A stretch of 38,718 bases of DNA, taken from contig JAHLVZ010000016.1 of the NCBI GenBank assembly GCA_019058165.1, positions 1 to 38,718 of the forward strand, read 5' to 3'. Source of the stretch: Candidatus Heimdallarchaeota archaeon. Lineage in GTDB: Archaea; Asgardarchaeota; Heimdallarchaeia; JABLTI01. This document shows, in pieces, positions 701-19,155 of the stretch (positions are counted from its first letter, which is position 1; each line of letters starts with the position of its first letter). The notes under the pieces were generated by a model that was given only the letters and a program-made list of their open reading frames with translations, searched no databases and was not told the DNA's origin. The translations under genes were made by a program, and so were the position numbers.

Positions 701-876
701 TGAATCATCTCATATTATTTTGTATATCAGAATAATTCGTTTCCATTATTATTTATTCCCATTTAGACATTTTTTGTTTTATATGAAAGAATTGTTAGTT
801 AAATTCGCTCAAGAATACCGACACTTTTTTAATAAAAAAAATGTTATCTAATAATTAGTTCTAGTAAGAAGAAATA

Positions 877-885
877 CATATATTA
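877..885 (+). promoter_or_regulatory. single nonamer (CATATATTA) before the ATPase gene
   Basis: One 9-bp unit matching the CAWGTAWTA repeat family lies 8 bp upstream of the GTG start of the ATPase. The surrounding 15 bp AATACATATATTACA (873-887) recur exactly at 3861-3875, at the other end of the block. It is a candidate binding site for the ribbon-helix-helix protein, and possibly marks the module edge. Confidence 0.4.
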
Positions 886-893
886 CAGAATGG

Positions 894-1859
894 GTGAAAT
901 CATTGTCAGGAATCCAAAAGAAAGTATCACCTTTTACCAAACATTTTGAGGCTAGAAAAGAAATCCTAAATTCATGGATAAAACATATGGAATTTAGAAG
1001 AAATCCATTTTTGGGCTTTACATTACCAAATCCAGAATTATTAGTGGAAATGTCTGAATTCCTTGTATCATTAGTAGATATTGTTGTATCAAATGAAAGA
1101 CCTGCAATATTCTTACGAGGTCCTGTAGGTGTCGGCAAATCAACTCATCTAATTTTAATTCGAAGAGATATACAAAATTTACAAGATCTACATAGTAATG
1201 CCTTTAGAACTGCTTATATTGATAGATCAGGATTACACGCTCGACAATTTGCTAGATTATGCGCAATTGGTTTTAATGTTAAATTCAACAAATCAGATGA
1301 TTCCGATGAAATAATGGATTCAGTAGGTAAAGACATTATAGAAAAATATGAGAAAGAAAAAATAAGATCGGTTTTGTTAGCTGAGGATATAAGTGAAAAC
1401 CAACATGAGATTTTTAGTAAACTTCAATATTTAGCTGATTTGAATGCGGAGAAAACTGAAGAACCAATTGCAACAATTATAATGACTGGAACTAGTGAAT
1501 ATTTCCAAGCATTAACTGCAGTTTTGCCGCAGATAGCAGATAGAAGCGAACCAATAGATGTACCTCGATTTGAATGGAAACATTCCCGTGAATTCATTGG
1601 AAGAAGAATAGCTTATGCAAAAGGAGAAATCAGTAGCTTTGATATCGATGATTTCTCAATTTACCCATTTGAAGAAGATGCTGCTAAGATTCTGGCCGAT
1701 AGCTCTCGAGGTATTCCTAGAGATTTAAGATTGTTATGTAGAGCTGCAGTAAGCGTCACTGCAGATGCTCTTTTACGAAAAGAAGGAAAAGGTGAAATTA
1801 CTTACGAAATAGCAAAAGTTGTCTCAGAGTATTATCAATCTTTCTTAAGTGAAGTATAG
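894..1859 (+). CDS. AAA+ ATPase, Orc/Cdc6- or ExeA-like, without a DNA-binding C-terminus
   Basis: A 321-aa P-loop ATPase. Walker A is GPVGVGKST (residues 76-84). The Walker B-like strand is VLLAED (160-165), a sensor-1-like strand is IMTGTS (196-201), and a sensor-2 helix begins GIPRDLRLLCR (273-283). The order and the Gly-x-Pro-Arg sensor 2 resemble the Orc1/Cdc6, TniB and ExeA branches of AAA+ proteins. The protein ends soon after the lid domain, so the winged-helix domain of true Orc1/Cdc6 is missing. GTG start; a TGGGTG lies just before it. The next gene, 64 bp downstream, encodes a ribbon-helix-helix DNA-binding protein, so the pair could act as motor and adaptor in DNA partition, replication initiation or transposition-like target choice. 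It is not a ParA-type (deviant Walker A) ATPase. Confidence 0.8.
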   Translation: MKSLSGIQKKVSPFTKHFEARKEILNSWIKHMEFRRNPFLGFTLPNPELLVEMSEFLVSLVDIVVSNERPAIFLRGPVGVGKSTHLILIRRDIQNLQDLHSNAFRTAYIDRSGLHARQFARLCAIGFNVKFNKSDDSDEIMDSVGKDIIEKYEKEKIRSVLLAEDISENQHEIFSKLQYLADLNAEKTEEPIATIIMTGTSEYFQALTAVLPQIADRSEPIDVPRFEWKHSREFIGRRIAYAKGEISSFDIDDFSIYPFEEDAAKILADSSRGIPRDLRLLCRAAVSVTADALLRKEGKGEITYEIAKVVSEYYQSFLSEV

Positions 1860-1883
1860 AATGTCTGAGTAATATTTATATTT

Positions 1884-1901
1884 CATGTATTACAAGTATT
1901 A
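1884..1901 (+). repeat. two tandem nonamers (operator-like) before the RHH gene
   Basis: CATGTATTA (1884-1892) is followed directly by CAAGTATTA (1893-1901). The pair ends 22 bp before the ATG of the ribbon-helix-helix gene, where an autoregulatory operator would lie. RHH proteins commonly bind tandem short direct repeats, one dimer per repeat. Confidence 0.65.
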
Positions 1902-1923
1902 ATTATAAAAGAAGGTAAATGAG

Positions 1924-2253
1924 ATGAGCTTGTTACAGAAATATAGAAAAGATGAAACCAGAAAAACTACTCATGATGAAGAAAGAAAAACAACTAAACA
2001 GCCACCAATAAAAGAAGAAAAACCCATAGCTCCAAAAGAAAGTGTAAAAAAAGTCAAAAGGAGAAAAGTTGAAGGTGGAGCAGGTATAAGAAGTAGACCA
2101 GTTATTTCAGCTACCGTAAGATCGGAATTAGTTGATGCATTAAACACTTTAACTGATGAAAAATATTTGAATAGATCAAAGTTTATTGAAGATGCATTAA
2201 TACGAACAATAAAAACAGAGTTTCCTGATATAGCATCAAAATACGGATTCTAA
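1924..2253 (+). CDS. ribbon-helix-helix DNA-binding protein (ParG/omega/SegB-like), 109 aa
   Basis: Residues 1-57 are a charged, lysine-rich, probably disordered N-terminal tail. Residues 58-101 match a ribbon-helix-helix fold: beta strand RPVISATVRS, helix A SELVDALNTLTDEK, then helix B NRSKFIEDALIRTIKTEF with the usual NRSxFIE turn. This layout (flexible basic tail plus C-terminal RHH) is that of centromere-binding partition proteins such as ParG, omega and SegB. ATG start. It follows an AAA+ ATPase gene and is flanked on both sides by 9-bp tandem repeats, two units upstream and at least four directly downstream. It probably binds these repeats and controls its own promoter. A plain transcriptional repressor is the alternative. 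Confidence 0.85.
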   Translation: MSLLQKYRKDETRKTTHDEERKTTKQPPIKEEKPIAPKESVKKVKRRKVEGGAGIRSRPVISATVRSELVDALNTLTDEKYLNRSKFIEDALIRTIKTEFPDIASKYGF

Positions 2254-2256
2254 TTA

Positions 2257-2310
2257 ACATTATTACAGCTATTTCAAGTATTACATGTATTACAAATAAT
2301 TCATGTAATA
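2257..2310 (+). repeat. six in-phase nonamers, four of them good
   Basis: Starting right after the stop codon of the RHH gene, units follow each other every 9 bp: two weak units (2257-2274), then CAAGTATTA (2275), CATGTATTA (2284), CAAATAATT (2293) and CATGTAATA (2302). This is the densest array in the window. Confidence 0.7.
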
Positions 2311-2422
2311 TTAATTATTATTATTTTCATTTTAGTCACATGATCTAAGATTTAAAATCTAAAAATTAAAACTTATTCTAAATAATAATCTATATAATAT
2401 TATATAGGTACTTAGAACTTGT

Positions 2423-2449
2423 TCTGTATTACTTGTAATGCAAGTAATA
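2423..2449 (+). repeat. three in-phase nonamers
   Basis: TCTGTATTA (2423), CTTGTAATG (2432) and CAAGTAATA (2441) are directly adjacent with a 9-bp period and belong to the CAWGTAWTA family. Confidence 0.6.
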
Positions 2450-2574
2450 TAATAGATATTTCAGCGATTTGATTATATTAGGAGTAAACAGGATCCATAT
2501 AGGAACAGATTTCGGAGGATTATAGAATCAGCATAATATTAAAATATATAATATTATAAGTATGATAAATAATA

Positions 2575-2637
2575 TTTGTATTACTAGTATTATTTATATT
2601 TTAAATAGTTCAAGTATTGTATATATTAGTAATATTA
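2575..2637 (+). repeat. nonamer array, seven phases
   Basis: TTTGTATTA (2575) and CTAGTATTA (2584) are followed, after two weak phases, by CAAGTATTG (2611), TATATATTA (2620) and GTAATATTA (2629). The two clusters are separated by exactly 36 bp, so the 9-bp phase is kept across the gap. Confidence 0.5.
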
Positions 2638-2802
2638 CTGTCCTGTTTAAATAAAAGCCTAAAGGATATTCGCTAATACAAAAGTTTAGGGAAAAACGAA
2701 TATTTTTTACTTATATTGCAATTTCCCCCCATCTGGAAACATTATAGCTTGGATCTAATTAAAAAGAATTAATTTTTGACATTAAAAATATTGAGAATAA
2801 TA

Positions 2803-2829
2803 CAAGTCATACATGTAATACAAAGGATA
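2803..2829 (+). repeat. three in-phase nonamers
   Basis: CAAGTCATA (2803), CATGTAATA (2812) and CAAAGGATA (2821) are adjacent at a 9-bp period. Confidence 0.55.
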
Positions 2830-2877
2830 TTATGTTATATGAAGAAATAGTCTTTTAGCAATACTTTGTGCTAGTTT

Positions 2878-2916
2878 CTGATAAAAAGCAACATATTTTC
2901 AATTGGTTTTTATCAG
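2878..2916. repeat. perfect 10-bp inverted repeat
   Basis: CTGATAAAAA (2878-2887) pairs exactly with TTTTTATCAG (2907-2916) around a 19-nt loop. It lies in the middle of the noncoding repeat region and could be a stem-loop in single-stranded DNA or RNA, or a protein-binding dyad. Confidence 0.5.
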
Positions 2917-3129
2917 AATCATATAATTAAGCGAAAATTTAGGTTTTATCTCATTTAATAGTCTAATATTATTCAATTACGCAGGCTTATTCTATATTAT
3001 ATATCATATATATTGATATTTTCGTGTTTTTTGTATTTGAAATCAACTAAGAGCTAAAACTCAAATAATAACCTGATCAGTAGCATATTTCTAATAATTT
3101 CTAAGGGTATAACATAATATTTTATAGAT

Positions 3130-3156
3130 TATGTATTATTTGTAATACAAATATTA
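3130..3156 (+). repeat. three in-phase nonamers
   Basis: TATGTATTA (3130), TTTGTAATA (3139) and CAAATATTA (3148) are adjacent at a 9-bp period, about 200 bp before the next gene. Confidence 0.55.
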
Positions 3157-3196
3157 CTCAAATCATCTATTTCTATAAGAAAAAGAGGATGTTTTC

Positions 3197-3265
3197 ATGA
3201 AAAAACGCATGTCAGCAAGTCTCAATTTTTATGGACAGTATGTCAGATTATTGAGGCAAATTTAG
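3197..3265 (+). CDS. doubtful 22-aa basic peptide
   Basis: An ATG frame of 22 codons starting MKKRMSASLNFYGQYVRLLR, preceded by a purine-rich AAAGAGGAT about 6 bases upstream. It is very short and has no recognisable family; its only support is the possible ribosome binding site. It could equally be noncoding. Confidence 0.2.
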   Translation: MKKRMSASLNFYGQYVRLLRQI

Positions 3266-3349
3266 ACATTTTTTAAGTTATTCATGATAAACGGAAACGT
3301 TTTATAGTAATGGCTGTTAGTCGTATTATATTGTATACTTGGTGATTAA

Positions 3350-3853
3350 ATGAGCAATAAAGAAATAAGAGATATAAAGTTAAGAGTTAAAGAAATACAA
3401 GAGAACCCAATAATTAAATTATTTTTTGAAGATGATAAATCTACAGGTAAAGGCTCAAAAGAGTGGACAAATCTTACCAAAATACAGCTGGAAACCCTAA
3501 TAGTGGATCTTATAACAGATGAAATAAATCCAAAGCTTGGTTATTTAGAAAGAGGAAAATTAAGAGGCGTTACTAAAAGATCGTTTTATAGAACACTAGA
3601 ACAAGCTAGATTGAACCTAATTAGAGCAATTTTTACTATAATGGTTGCTTCATTTCTTAATATAATAGATTCACCGAGATTATCAGATTTCAATGAATTA
3701 TCACAAAACTTCCTGGATTTGGTTACAATAAATAACTTGGAAAATCAAACTCCTGAAGAAAAAGAGAAATGGATAAAAATCTATACAAAAATGATATTTG
3801 ATAATGTCCAAAATCTAAAAAAACAAACAGCTCTAGCAAATCAAGATAAGTAA
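3350..3853 (+). CDS. unknown helical protein, 167 aa
   Basis: I do not recognise it. It is predicted to be almost all helical: a charged N-terminus (MSNKEIRDIKLRVKEIQENP), a basic segment RGKLRGVTKRSFYRTLEQAR (residues about 77-96) that could be a DNA-contacting helix-turn-helix, a hydrophobic helix around residues 98-115 (NLIRAIFTIMVASFLNII) and an amphipathic C-terminus. There is no clear signal peptide. ATG start. It is the last gene of the repeat-bearing block; nonamer units overlap its 3' end and it converges on HypF. A replication or partition accessory role is possible from context only. Confidence 0.7.
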   Translation: MSNKEIRDIKLRVKEIQENPIIKLFFEDDKSTGKGSKEWTNLTKIQLETLIVDLITDEINPKLGYLERGKLRGVTKRSFYRTLEQARLNLIRAIFTIMVASFLNIIDSPRLSDFNELSQNFLDLVTINNLENQTPEEKEKWIKIYTKMIFDNVQNLKKQTALANQDK

Positions 3854-3882
3854 TGCTTGTAATACATATATTACATATTTGC
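3847..3882 (+). repeat. nonamer array closing the accessory block
   Basis: In-phase units TAAGTAATG (3847), CTTGTAATA (3856), CATATATTA (3865) and a weak CATATTTGC (3874) overlap the 3' end of the unknown gene and stop just before hypF. I saw no comparable array to the right of this point. Confidence 0.55.
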
Positions 3883-3888
3883 TTAAAT

Positions 3889-6210
3889 CTAGTCTTTAGC
3901 TTTCAATGCTGCAATTATTGCTTGACCACTACTAATACCACCATCACCACATGGTAAAGATTTGTGCTGTAAGAATTCCAAATTAGCAGCATTTACTTTT
4001 TTAGCTATTTGACGAGTGATTATATCATTGTAAGCAACACCACCTGTGAAACCAATCTTCTTAATGGAATTAGATAATGCATAGTCAATTGCTGAATCTG
4101 CAAATTGATTCGCTAAGTAAAGATGAATAGCCAAAGCAATATCAGCGGGTTGCTCATTTGAGATTAAATGTTCATAAGCTTGATATAACATCGAAGTTGT
4201 GTTGATTATTCCTGAATTCCTTTCAGGTAAATCAAAACCTATTTTTCCTAATCTGCCTTTACGGGCTAATGCTTCAAGAATTATCGCTGGTTCTCCTTCA
4301 TATGTTCTTTCATAACAGGATTTCAGTAAAGCACTTGACGCAGCTAAAATTCTGCCTGTGCTCGTAGTATTGAAAACATTTATTCCTTTGTTTAATTGCG
4401 AGAGAACTACTTGTATTTCATTTTCTCCGCCAGGCAAACTATTTGGATAATTATTCAATAGTAAATCTGATAACTCATTTTCGGAGAATCTCTTTGATAA
4501 AATACCTACAACCATCCTAATAGGATAAAAGGTAGCACGATCTCCACCAATCATTGGTTGTTCTTCGAGATGTCCTATTCTTTTAAATTCTGTATAGGAA
4601 TTATGAAAAATTTCTCCACCCCAAATTTTACCGTCGGAACCATAACCAACTCCATCAGCAATAATTGATATTATTTCTTCTTTTTTTGGTACTTTATTAT
4701 CTAACATTAATGCTACGGCATGAGCATGATGGTGTTGTATTCTAAATAGTTGAGCATCATATTCTTTCTTATATTTCTCTGCTAATCTTGTAGAGAGAAG
4801 ATTCGGATGCAAATCACTACCAATTGAATCATAGGAATTTACATCTAATAGTGAAGTCATATGATTAATAGCCGCTTCAAGAAAAGCAAGAGTTTCAAGA
4901 GTATCTACATTACCGATAAATTGAGTAGGAAAACATCGATTTGTTTTAGCAATTGCTCCTGTTGAAGTTAAAAGTGGTCCAACTCCCAATGAAGAAAACT
5001 TACCTAGATTAAATGGTAGTTTAACAGGTTCTGGAACCCAACCTCGAGATCTTCTAATTAAAACCGGGTTATCATTAGCATAACGTACAACACTATCATC
5101 TGCACGTTGGAAAATTCTTCTATTATGTAACAAAAAATAGTCTGCAAGTTCACCTGCATTTTCTAAAATCTCATCATTATCAATATACATAGGAATTTCG
5201 GAGGGATTTGCACTTGTTAATATCAATGCTGGATCTTTTATTTCATCTAGAATTAATGAATGAATCCCGGAATATGGGAGCATTACGCCTACATTAAATA
5301 GTTTTGGCGCAATCCACTTTGATAAAGGAAAAGGTTCTTTTTTCTCAAGTAATACAACGGGTCTTCGATGACTTGTTATTATTTCTTCTTCACTGGTATT
5401 GATTTTCGCATATTTCTTTACATCTATAATTGAACTTGAGATAATAGCAAAAGGTTTGTATTTCCTTTTACCTTTGCGAGTTCTTAATTTTAGTATCGTT
5501 TCATCGTTATTTACTGAGCATGCTAAATGAGTGCCACCGATCCCTTTAATTACGATTATATTCCCTTCAGAGATTAATTTACTAATTTCTTTGAATATAT
5601 TTTGTAATTCTAATTTTTCCCCATTTTTGTTATGAAGCGATAATATTGGACCACATCTTATACAGCAAGTAGTTTGCGCATGATGTCGACGATCAAGAGG
5701 ATCATTGTATTCTTTACTACATGATTCACAAAATGGAAAATCTATCATAGTTGTATTAGGTCTATCATAAGGAAGTTTAGTGATTGTAGTATAACGAGGA
5801 CCACAAATTGCACATGAAGTAAAGGGATATTTAAATCGATAATCTTTACGATTTTTCATATCACTTAAACATTTTTCACAAATAGAAATGTCAGGTGGAA
5901 GATAAGAGACACCACCAATCTTCCGTTTTGAGCTTTTTTGAATCTCAAAAATTGAAAATTCATCTTGGAAGCTACTCCAGGTAACTTGATAATCTTCATA
6001 CTTGGCTAAATAAGGTTTATCGAATTTTAAAGAAGCAACAAATTTCAAAAGAACTTTCTTTAATCCCTCGGCTACGATTAATACTCCAGCATCACCTTGG
6101 TTTCTTACAAATCCTGTTAATCCTAATTTAATTGCTATTTGATAGACAAAAGGTCTAAAGCCAATACCCTGAACTATACCTCTACAAATGACTTTTACTC
6201 GAGACCTCAA
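3889..6210 (-). CDS. hypF: HypF, carbamoyltransferase for [NiFe]-hydrogenase maturation
   Basis: HypF makes the cyanide ligands of the [NiFe]-hydrogenase active site: it turns carbamoyl phosphate into carbamoyl-adenylate and loads it on HypE. All family domains are present in 773 aa. They are an acylphosphatase domain (about 5-90, VQGIGFRPF motif), two zinc fingers (C111/C114/C133/C136 and C161/C164/C183/C186), a YrdC-like domain (about 200-390, with KRKYKPFAI and LTSANPSEIP), and a Kae1/HypF-like C-terminal domain with HHHAHA at 493-498. ATG start. No other hyp gene or hydrogenase subunit lies in this window, so it acts with genes elsewhere. It converges on the accessory block to its left; no promoter was examined. 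Confidence 0.95.
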   Translation of the reverse strand: MRSRVKVICRGIVQGIGFRPFVYQIAIKLGLTGFVRNQGDAGVLIVAEGLKKVLLKFVASLKFDKPYLAKYEDYQVTWSSFQDEFSIFEIQKSSKRKIGGVSYLPPDISICEKCLSDMKNRKDYRFKYPFTSCAICGPRYTTITKLPYDRPNTTMIDFPFCESCSKEYNDPLDRRHHAQTTCCIRCGPILSLHNKNGEKLELQNIFKEISKLISEGNIIVIKGIGGTHLACSVNNDETILKLRTRKGKRKYKPFAIISSSIIDVKKYAKINTSEEEIITSHRRPVVLLEKKEPFPLSKWIAPKLFNVGVMLPYSGIHSLILDEIKDPALILTSANPSEIPMYIDNDEILENAGELADYFLLHNRRIFQRADDSVVRYANDNPVLIRRSRGWVPEPVKLPFNLGKFSSLGVGPLLTSTGAIAKTNRCFPTQFIGNVDTLETLAFLEAAINHMTSLLDVNSYDSIGSDLHPNLLSTRLAEKYKKEYDAQLFRIQHHHAHAVALMLDNKVPKKEEIISIIADGVGYGSDGKIWGGEIFHNSYTEFKRIGHLEEQPMIGGDRATFYPIRMVVGILSKRFSENELSDLLLNNYPNSLPGGENEIQVVLSQLNKGINVFNTTSTGRILAASSALLKSCYERTYEGEPAIILEALARKGRLGKIGFDLPERNSGIINTTSMLYQAYEHLISNEQPADIALAIHLYLANQFADSAIDYALSNSIKKIGFTGGVAYNDIITRQIAKKVNAANLEFLQHKSLPCGDGGISSGQAIIAALKAKD

Positions 6211-11506: not shown

Positions 11507-12544
11507 ATGGCTACAGTGAATGAAACAAGCGTTGATAGAGAAACACGAATCCTTGAAGAAATCAAACTTGTAGAAGGTTCAAATCTTTGGGCGCTTGTTA
11601 TGAGACGAATGCGTAAAGATCAGATGGGCATGATAGGATTTTATATCGTTGCTTTTCTGGTTATTATTGCAATTGTAGCGTTTCTTATTCAACAATATGA
11701 TGCATTGTTCGGTTTGAATAATCCTACCGATGATCCTTATGATATTCTTAATTACTACATTGAAATTTGGATTCCTGGAACTCAGAAACATCTGCGTTTG
11801 ATAGCACATCCAAAATACATTATTCCCGGAGATCAAACATTAGCTCCAAATGCACAATACCCATTTGGTACTGATACAAGAGGTTTTGACATACTTTCCA
11901 GAACATTCTTTGGATCCTCATTATCATTAGTCCTAGGTTTTATAGGTCAAATGACAACAAGCATTTTGGGTATGATAATTGGATCATTTTCAGGCTATTA
12001 TGGTGGATTTTTCGACGATATAGTACAAAGAATCAACGAAATCATAAGCGCTATGCCAGGATTTATCCTCTTCATCTTTATCGTTGCTATCTTCAGAGAT
12101 ATAGCTGGCGCAATCCCAGGCGGAATATATATGGTGGTAATAGTAATATTTGCACTGATCGGCTGGGGTGGAACTAGTCTGATTGTGCGGAGTACGATTC
12201 TGTCGCTGAAAAACACGGAATTCATAGAAGCTGAACGGGCACTTGGTGCCAAGGATTCAAGAATAATATTTAGACATATTATTCCAAACTCACTATCCCC
12301 AGTAATTGTCATTACCACTTTAGGAATTGCCAACACATTGATGTTCATTGCAGCACTTGCATTCTTCGGTTTAGGAGATCCTACAGCTGTTTCGTGGGGC
12401 GATGATTTAGCATATCACCGAGATCATTTACTAACTTATTGGTGGATGCCAACGTGGCCTGCGACGATGATATTCATAACAATTCTTGGTTTTAACCTAA
12501 TGGGAGACGCATTAAGAGACGCATTAGATCCGAAACTAAAATGA
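11507..12544 (+). CDS. ABC transporter permease, DppC/OppC type
   Basis: The partner of the preceding permease, 345 aa. It has the N-terminal cytosolic segment and first helix typical of the family (LVMRRMRKDQMGMIGFYIVAF), the signature FGTDTRGFDILSRTFFGS, a core of five hydrophobic helices and the EAA loop (LKNTEFIEAERALGAKDS, then RIIFRHIIPNSLSP). ATG start, with GGAGATG a few bases upstream. It ends two stops before a good hairpin terminator, so the operon holds only the two permeases. The substrate could be peptides, but this family also moves sugars and nickel; the window does not decide it. Confidence 0.9.
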   Translation: MATVNETSVDRETRILEEIKLVEGSNLWALVMRRMRKDQMGMIGFYIVAFLVIIAIVAFLIQQYDALFGLNNPTDDPYDILNYYIEIWIPGTQKHLRLIAHPKYIIPGDQTLAPNAQYPFGTDTRGFDILSRTFFGSSLSLVLGFIGQMTTSILGMIIGSFSGYYGGFFDDIVQRINEIISAMPGFILFIFIVAIFRDIAGAIPGGIYMVVIVIFALIGWGGTSLIVRSTILSLKNTEFIEAERALGAKDSRIIFRHIIPNSLSPVIVITTLGIANTLMFIAALAFFGLGDPTAVSWGDDLAYHRDHLLTYWWMPTWPATMIFITILGFNLMGDALRDALDPKLK

Positions 12545-12553
12545 TAAAAAATA

Positions 12554-12583
12554 GACGCTTAGGCGTCTTAATTTTTCTTTTTT
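12554..12583 (+). terminator. hairpin plus T-run after the permease operon
   Basis: GACGC (12554-12558) pairs with GCGTC (12563-12567) around TTAG, followed by TTAATTTTTCTTTTTTT. It lies 10 bp after the permease stop codon. Confidence 0.6.
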
Positions 12584-12893
12584 TAATTTTAACTAATCAG
12601 TCCAAGTCAAAAAACAATGATTTTTACTCGAAAAATGCTATTCAAATAAATATTTTTTCGAAACTTTTATATATGAAGTTCTAACAAAAACGTTAGAAGT
12701 AATATAAAAGTCTTTCCCGAAATGATAAAATCTTATGTAAAATAATGTGGGGCCATTTTAAATAGAAGATATAATCTTCTATATTAGACTGTCTTCTTTG
12801 TCCAATTGTTAATGGGTTATTGGATTCTATCGTTTACAGGATAAGAAATAGAATATAAGAGTCTGATTCAATAAAGGAGTGGCTTATTAAATA
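12584..12893 (+). promoter_or_regulatory. upstream region of TFB with a TATA-like box and a dyad
   Basis: This gene-free stretch holds CGAAACTTTTATATATGAA at about 12658-12676, which looks like a BRE plus TATA box. It is followed by an inverted repeat TTCTAAC/GTTAGAA (12679-12698) where the initiator or an operator would sit. That would give a leader of nearly 200 bases before the TFB ATG. A closer promoter is possible but not obvious. Confidence 0.4.
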
Positions 12894-18201: not shown

Positions 18202-18637
18202 ATACAGACCTCCATTACATAATAACAAGTTAACAAGAACAAAATAAGCACATAAGAGGTATTATTATCTACATATTTCCCTCATAAGATTTCTAGAAAA
18301 AAGTAAGAATTTATACAGGTTATTCACAAAAATTGTGTATACACATGAACACTGTATATACAATATACACAGTATACACAAGATAACAATTGAATAGTGA
18401 ATAAACCATCATTTTACTCAAGAGAGTAATAGTGAAAGTAATAGAAAAACAGGATTTTATTAGTAATATGAAATTTATACTGTTTTTTATCATTTTTACT
18501 CAAAATATTATTTATTATTTGTTAAAATTAAGGATTTCTTTGAATAATTGATCAAAAAAGAAGGTTTCTCCGGTTTTCTTTTCACAAAAGGACGATGTTC
18601 TCCAATTCATTTGTGAATTCACAGATTTTCTGTGAAC

Positions 18638-18653
18638 GTGTGAACGAAACGGG
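18638..18653 (+). promoter_or_regulatory. degenerate ORB-like half box
   Basis: GTGTGAACGAAACGGG resembles the right half of the archaeal ORB (GTGGAAACGAAAGGGG), differing at three of 16 positions. The left half is not conserved. Confidence 0.35.
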
Positions 18654-18676
18654 AAATATCCGTATTTGGTTTGATT

Positions 18677-18700
18677 TTCCAGTGGAAATTAAGGGGTTTT
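18677..18700 (+). promoter_or_regulatory. origin recognition box 1
   Basis: TTCCAGTGGAAA followed four bases later by GGGGTTTT matches the archaeal ORB layout: a TTCCAGTGGAAA dyad plus a G-string bound by the Orc1/Cdc6 winged helix and AAA+ domain. Only the four bases between dyad and G-string (TTAA) depart from common versions. Confidence 0.8.
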
Positions 18701-18837
18701 AATAAATGATAATAAGAAAAGAGTATTTTTGTCGGCTTATTTTCTTTTTTATTGAAAAATTATTCAATGTTCACAAATAGATAAATAGTTATTCACAAAA
18801 TAAAGGTTTCCAACCATTCCTGGATCAAATTTTTGGT

Positions 18838-18861
18838 ATCTCCCCATTACTTCTATTGGAA
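18838..18861 (-). promoter_or_regulatory. origin recognition box 2, inverted
   Basis: Read on the minus strand: TTCCAATAGAAG, then TAAT, then GGGGAGAT. It has the same length and spacing as box 1, with the dyad partly degenerate. Its G-string faces that of box 1, the usual inverted pair around a duplex unwinding element. Confidence 0.6.
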
Positions 18862-19155
18862 CTACTATATTTATCCTAATAACCTAATCTCATAAAATAA
18901 TATATAATATATAAATCTCAGTTTGGTACTTAAGATACTATCTAATATATTAATCTTTGGTCTAATTAAATAGATAATATTTAAATAAAATAATTATCTC
19001 CATTAGAAATATACGGGTCTAAGACCTTAAAAACCAGGATCACTTACTAATAATAAAGAAAAAAAGATAATGAAAACACATAATATCCCGATAATATTCA
19101 GATAATAAAACATAATATAAATTAACTTACCTATACTTCTATTGGAGACAAGCCA

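Follow-up and report, generated by a model that had tools for sequence, protein, structure and literature searches.

An origin-linked locus of Asgard archaea with an AAA+ ATPase, a ribbon-helix-helix-like protein and a phased palindromic array: a candidate DNA partition module

Introduction

The stretch of DNA analysed here (the window, 38,718 nt) derives from an Asgard archaeon of the Heimdallarchaeota lineage with a searched genome of 3.36 Mb and carries, on contig C108, an AAA+ ATPase gene followed by a gene for a predicted ribbon-helix-helix (RHH) protein, both surrounded by about ten clusters of two to six short palindromic units. By sequence comparison, the repeats are phased, confined to the locus and conserved, the gene pair recurs in other Asgard archaea together with a third gene and in proximity to oriC, and homologues accompanied by repeats occur on plasmids. 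We propose, with a probability of roughly 60%, that the locus represents an origin-linked DNA partition (segregation) module consisting of an AAA+ ATPase and an RHH centromere-binding protein. That the locus itself is real, conserved and origin-linked we regard as virtually certain.

Results

A strictly phased palindromic array surrounds the two genes

An initial sequence-only reading of the window had described an AAA+ ATPase gene adjacent to an RHH gene, accompanied by nonamers of the consensus CAWGTAWTA in eight clusters. Both genes turned out to be real (for coordinates see Table 1), and so did the array. However, the clusters number about ten instead of eight, and the nonamer has no direction but represents one register of a symmetric array: each unit combines the 7-bp palindrome GTAWTAC with a 2-bp WW spacer, resulting in a strand-symmetric (GTAWTAC)(WW)n structure with a period of 9. 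The nonamer matches both strands because the array is a palindrome recurring every 9 bp.

Phasing was scored by a 25-bp triplet pattern comprising three units. At a threshold of at least 17/21, 14 triplets were detected in the region 801-4500, compared to a mean of 0.003 and a maximum of 1 in 1000 dinucleotide shuffles, which places the 9-bp phase claimed earlier for the clusters far above chance. With up to three mismatches allowed, ten triplet sites occur in the whole genome, all within C108:1869-3874, while the reversed control pattern gave no triplet site in the whole genome and alternative spacers of 0, 1 or 3-6 bp gave none within the window. Single nonamers with one mismatch were only mildly enriched (91 vs. 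63), and counting them gives weak evidence; the signal is the tandem phasing. The repeats are thus not common across the genome, and the triplets are found at the locus only. Confinement to positions 877-3882, as originally proposed, holds for the tandem triplets but not for a weaker, conserved pair further downstream (4404-4419), at the equivalent of which the genomes G008 and G001 possess a better copy (GTTGTAC-NN-GTAATAC-NN-GTATTTC).

Cluster 1 is likely an operator/centromere site, judging from its position. Six clusters are located in the non-coding DNA of about 1 kb that lies 3' of the RHH gene. Beyond the arrays, the only element standing out in the intergenic region is a promoter-like conserved block 5' of gene 4, the third conserved gene of the module.

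The ATPase is of the Orc/ExeA type and its partner is RHH-like

The ATPase displays a Walker A (GPVGVGKST), a Walker B (VLLAED) and a sensor-2-like motif (GIPRDLR; GxPRDxR), and its best Pfam matches are AAA_22/ATPase_2. No ParA family was present among its Pfam matches, the deviant Walker A motif KGGxxK[ST] is absent, and no Pfam match to a C-terminal winged helix (Cdc6_C) was obtained. A search of its own genome with the orc1/cdc6 family (TIGR02928) also gave no match at C108. The closest curated family, over most of the length, is TIGR03015 (XrtA/PEP-CTERM-associated, ExeA-like ATPase), which is matched by 17 of 20 members with a best E of 8.5e-23; however, the window protein reaches 32 bits, far under the family cut-off of 324.5 bits, and its gene context is entirely different. 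The ATPase family profile extends to Orc1 chains in the PDB (E 1.7e-4). The earlier assignment to the Orc/ExeA type of AAA+ ATPases, and not to ParA, was therefore confirmed. As an AAA+ P-loop protein the ATPase also differs from the actin-like and tubulin-like NTPases of ParM (type II) and TubZ (type III) systems.

The RHH protein starts with an invariant peptide, MSLLQKYRK, and ends in an RHH-like domain; the charged linker in between is variable. RHH_1 matched the window protein with 16.8 bits (E 0.0067), which is under the Pfam cut-off of 20.5, and matched 4 of 15 homologues with a best E of 2.5e-4. A model of the monomer contained helices only, and a Foldseek search of this model returned nothing. 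A toxin-antitoxin pair would require an adjacent toxin gene, but by Pfam no toxin family is found beside the RHH gene, neither in the ATPase nor in gene 4.

The module is conserved within the genus and recurs across Asgard archaea

Within the genus, the ATPase and RHH genes are single-copy and syntenic in seven of nine genomes and adjoin each other at all seven loci. In each of these seven, an equivalent of cluster 1 is located at -23 to -38 from the ATPase start, and the other clusters also occupy near-constant positions relative to this start (approximately +955 to +975, +1342 to +1367, +1520 to +1555, +1650, +1700, +1900, +2240 to +2290, +2960 to +3012 and +3510 to +3557). Alignment identity amounts to 53-60% inside the clusters vs. 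38-42% between them.

An ATPase profile including the plasmid homologues described below matched 73 of 228 Asgard genomes, weak matches included. Strong full-length matches (E 1e-57 to 1e-68) were obtained in 43 genomes of group f28, which probably corresponds to Thorarchaeia, with one copy per genome save for one highly contaminated genome and 43-47% identity to the ATPases of the Heimdall genus (g1). Both genomes of the Odinarchaeum-like group f25 also gave strong matches, and the full-length matches in f12, f13 and one f20 genome are interrupted by an insertion. When a profile built from Heimdall and f28 ATPases only was run against 6,685 open frames, it recovered the f12, f13, f20, Odin-like, haloarchaeal and Methanohalobium ATPases and no other frame at E <0.01.

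The loci inspected share one arrangement: the gene after the ATPase is small and of RHH or RHH-like type, with a third conserved gene close by. In f28 the following gene encodes an RHH protein starting with [MLV]S[LV]L[GK]KYR (22 of 22 parsed loci), and in f12, f13 and f20 the gene order equals that of the window, i.e., ATPase, small RHH-like protein, gene 4 and hypF. The pairing of the two genes seen in the window is thus repeated elsewhere, in seven genus genomes and all 22 f28 loci, and with a diverged partner in the other lineages and on plasmids.

The repeats accompany the genes. The f28 genomes possess the same core with period 9 upstream of the ATPase (GTATTAC-NN-GAACTAC-NN-GTGATAC) and 3' of the RHH gene, and 13-18 clusters fill the approximately 12 kb between module and origin. 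On an f28 contig of 592 kb, the surroundings of the module and the origin recognition boxes (ORBs) and the DNA between them account for 18 of 21 clusters scoring at least 17 and for all 13 scoring at least 18, at about one per 0.4-1 kb; the 13 strong ones are inside a single stretch of 8.5 kb from module to ORBs, and control spacings give 0-1. In the f28 genome G194, 7 of 18 clusters are intragenic; seven other f28 genomes gave a like picture, sparser in G214. An Odin-like genome has the same core with period 10, and half of its pairs (6 of 12 in the 1.2 Mb read) are located within 20 kb of the ATPase, while f13 and f20 exhibit a different core (around GATATC in f13) with period 13. Hence, core and period change between lineages but the layout does not, a pattern expected when a binding protein co-evolves with its site.

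The module is located next to the predicted replication origin

ORBs (TTCCASTGGAAANNAAGGGGT) were searched genome-wide in 28 genomes, complemented by a local scan. The ORB at position 18676 of the window is the only one in its genome without mismatch and is accompanied by an inverted, degenerate ORB-like copy near 18840-18861. The same intergenic region contains short tandem TATACAC-like repeats (18333-18380). The adjacent gene, here referred to as the origin marker gene, also adjoins ORBs in f28, Odin-like, f12 and f13 genomes and is located near the module in f20; as this gene is shared beside ORBs, the regions represent the same ancestral origin region. Its occurrence beside ORBs in five Asgard lineages may make it a useful marker of Asgard origins. 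A further small gene (RIYVYDVKEG...) occurs beside ORBs in f12, f13, Odin-like and f28 genomes (L165 (G075) 12472-12825; L164 8139-8414), but no copy was detected in the window.

The predicted oriC, as defined by ORBs, orc1 and the shared marker gene, is 1-18 kb away from the module in all lineages whose markers are linked to it; ORBs and/or orc1 are found at this distance in Heimdall g1, f28, f25, f12 and f13. The ORBs are 16.5-18 kb from the ATPase in three Heimdall genomes including that of the window, and about 9-15 kb from it in all 12 examined f28 genomes with ORBs (in the f28 genome G192 the search did not find any). Three Heimdall genomes have an orc1 gene on the side of the module facing away from the ORBs, at a distance of about 10 kb. 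The distance is about 5.5 kb in both Odin-like genomes and within about 5 kb in f12 and f13, and orc1 is 2.5-4 kb from the module in f12, f13 and f25. In G008, two orc1/cdc6 genes near the module share one 100-kb contig (C6, 46107-47168 and 80058-81149).

In the Odin-like contig G174:C1, an ORB pair and orc1 at 622-625 kb coincide with the maximum that the cumulative GC skew reaches within the 1.2 Mb read. A potential origin of Odinarchaeum has been placed at nucleotide 1, based on a local skew minimum (PMC9246712). Our predicted placement at the ORBs conflicts with this position; in proposing it, we gave greater weight to the ORBs, to orc1 and to the marker gene.

Homologues are encoded on archaeal plasmids

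Distant homologues of the ATPase, about 25% identical to the window protein, are encoded on plasmids of Haladaptatus, Halomarina, Natronosalvus, Natrinema, Haloarcula marismortui (pNG100) and Methanohalobium, that is, in nine haloarchaeal plasmid records (pNG100 and one Natrinema plasmid being counted twice) and in Methanohalobium pMETEV01. The gene after each ATPase encodes a small protein whose N-terminus is charged and whose end is RHH-like, and in four of the plasmid regions read the next annotated gene is orc1. Unbiased lag analysis identified repeats flanking the pair on both sides, with a period of 6 in 6/6 haloarchaeal plasmids and of 7 in pMETEV01. In pNG100 the hexamer triplets are limited to the module locus, where they flank the two genes on both sides and also lie in the gap between them. 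pNG100, which was read completely, contains no deviant Walker A motif, and the Natrinema A29 plasmid a single, implausible match only. As these plasmids carry the module beside an initiator gene and no visible ParA, it is most simply explained as their partition module.

Gene 4 and neighbouring genes

Gene 4 homologues adjoin the module in f12, f13, f20, Odin-like and f28 genomes. hypF does so in f12, f13, f20 and f28 and has array clusters within its coding sequence; it is probably a passenger. Upstream, on the strand opposite to the ATPase, the window encodes a coiled-coil protein starting with MSSEDD (131-700), which is kept beside the ATPase in those genus members whose contig reaches it.

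Table 1. Positions of the module, its array clusters and the candidate origin within the window
Feature	Position	Strand	Remark
Array cluster 1, 2 units	871-886	.	just upstream of ATPase start
AAA+ ATPase, ExeA/Orc type, 321 aa	894-1859	+	
Array cluster 2, 4 units	1869-1902	.	between ATPase and RHH genes
RHH protein, 109 aa	1924-2253	+	predicted array binder
Array cluster 3, 6 units	2260-2311	.	
Array cluster 4, 3 units	2426-2450	.	
Array cluster 5, 5 units	2551-2593	.	
Array cluster 6, 3 weaker units	2614-2638	.	
Array cluster 7, 3 units	2797-2821	.	
Array cluster 8, 3 units	3133-3157	.	
Gene 4, 167 aa, third conserved gene of module	3350-3853	+	no Pfam family above cut-off
Array cluster 9, 3 units	3850-3874	.	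between gene 4 and hypF
hypF-like gene	3889-6210	-	syntenic neighbour
Weak array pair	4404-4419	.	within hypF coding sequence
Candidate chromosomal origin, AT-rich intergenic	18229-19155	.	ORB TTTCCAGTGGAAATTAAGGGGT at 18676 (+)
Origin marker gene, 145 aa	19156-19593	+	

Discussion

Plasmid systems combining a ParA ATPase with an RHH protein possess tandem short repeats in front of the operon which serve as operator and centromere, the omega heptads being 7 bp long, and the N-terminal tails of ParG, omega and SegB control the ATP cycle of their ParA-type partners. The Asgard module shares with ParF/ParG of TP228 and delta/omega of pSM19035 an RHH protein with an N-terminal tail and tandem short repeats, but differs in the class of the ATPase, in a period of 9 (6, 7, 10 and 13 in its relatives) and in being chromosomal and origin-linked. 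In the mechanism that we infer, one RHH dimer would bind each GTAWTAC unit, so that dimers would be placed side by side every 9 bp, and the approximately ten coated clusters near oriC would act as the centromere; those upstream of the two genes would double as operators setting their expression. The basic N-terminal peptide (MSLLxKYRK), presented on a flexible linker, would engage the AAA+ ATPase and control its ATP cycle, and the ATPase might alternate between DNA-bound or oligomeric and free states, thereby holding, pairing or moving sister origins in an ATP-driven manner, with segregation as the output. Gene 4 may contribute as an accessory component.

The closest chromosomal counterpart is SegAB of Sulfolobales, a two-gene pair with an RHH site-binding protein and an operator upstream of the pair (PMC12284271). 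The SegB sites are mostly intragenic and clustered near segAB and oriC1 (PMC12284271), and the Asgard clusters, to which binding is predicted, are likewise concentrated at the pair and near the origin with many of them intragenic. Clusters inside coding sequences suit a centromere better than a regulon. In contrast, SegA is of the ParA type, the SegB site is a single 13-bp palindrome and not a tandem of 9-bp units, and SegAB has no gene 4. The module thus has an adjacent gene for a partner of DNA-binding type, with binding predicted, and centromere-like repeats at the locus near the origin, as in ParABS and SegAB, but lacks a ParA-family ATPase with the deviant Walker A motif: by its ATPase class it falls outside the ParA-type systems, yet its predicted layout is partition-like. 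The ORBs, orc1 and the plasmid context favour partition or some other function linked to the origin, in line with the initial reading, which had suggested a partition or replication-initiation module.

A number of observations weigh against a role in partition. We know of no partition system with an AAA+ ATPase of this class, and the closest solved relatives by sequence include Orc1, so that the protein may serve replication. An AlphaFold model of the ATPase from seven close homologues was unusable (pLDDT 44). Most other Heimdallarchaeia genomes are without the module, and two genomes of the same genus (G006 and G007) have no ATPase, RHH gene, arrays, hypF or close uvrC, in which case loss and an assembly gap are indistinguishable; contigs may be missing, or both may belong to a sub-clade with a different origin region. 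Furthermore, the RHH profile misses the Odin, f12/f13 and haloarchaeal partners, and comparison of the Heimdall and haloarchaeal partner profiles yielded a probability of 0.1%. As the profiles fail to connect the partners across lineages, these are linked by position and pattern only, and those outside Heimdall g1 and f28 are to be considered RHH-like by pattern. Finally, genomes with the module also encode ParA/MinD-family proteins, and the module may therefore not be the sole segregation system. The best ParA-family gene in the genus, the only one checked for a SegAB arrangement, has no RHH neighbour.

The main alternative, which we nevertheless consider unlikely, is a function in replication control, in which the Orc-like ATPase and the array-bound RHH protein would license, repress or time initiation at oriC, e.g., as a titration site or initiator loader. 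Like the Orc1/Cdc6 initiators, the ATPase has an AAA+ core with detectable profile similarity, reaching the Orc1 structures, and the module is always found near ORBs or orc1, on plasmids often beside the latter. However, unlike these initiators it lacks a Cdc6_C match and escapes the orc1/cdc6 family search, has an RHH partner and its own repeats, and coexists with a separate, genuine orc1 in most of these replicons. In addition, the arrays are positioned 1-18 kb from the ORBs without overlap and extend into genes such as hypF, which differs from iterons in an unwinding region. The many clusters spread over some 12 kb beside the f28 origin would also be compatible with a chromosome organiser, in which a condensin-like or bridging activity is loaded or positioned at the origin domain by the RHH-covered arrays and the ATPase, with no active segregation involved; a link to chromosome compartments has also been described for SegB (PMC12284271). 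We consider this improbable, as the plasmid versions reside on replicons of about 30 kb that offer little to organise but need stable inheritance.

Still less probable is that the RHH protein merely represses its own operon and neighbouring genes. Heimdall g1 does possess clusters directly upstream of both genes, and f28 upstream of the ATPase, but most clusters are located off promoters, including the six behind the RHH gene and the intragenic ones of f28, and autoregulation would leave the constant linkage to the origin unexplained. The occurrence of homologues on plasmids might finally suggest a remnant or addiction module of an integrated plasmid or virus. This can hardly be reconciled with a single copy conserved by synteny at orthologous origins of several Asgard lineages amidst core-gene neighbours, and no viral homologue was found among the viral contigs and phages searched.

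Partition systems are classified by their NTPase (PMC13245405). As the ATPase belongs to the AAA+ proteins, the module would constitute a new partition type if segregation can be demonstrated. Chances appear about even that it represents an AAA+-driven class of segregation systems with a new type of NTPase and a true chromosomal centromere beside oriC, which dates back to early Asgard archaea and is shared with archaeal plasmids. The open-access literature contained no description of such a system, which is not proof of novelty. With regard to chromosome segregation in Asgard archaea, a recent review only notes ParA and ParB homologues that they may use (PMC7617429). The module would add a concrete candidate, whose genes are named, whose binding motif is predicted and whose region at the origin is mapped, and origins of several Asgard groups can be predicted from the ORB, orc1 and marker-gene data. 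With the versions on haloarchaeal plasmids, e.g., pNG100 of Haloarcula marismortui, the system becomes testable in a genetically tractable host.

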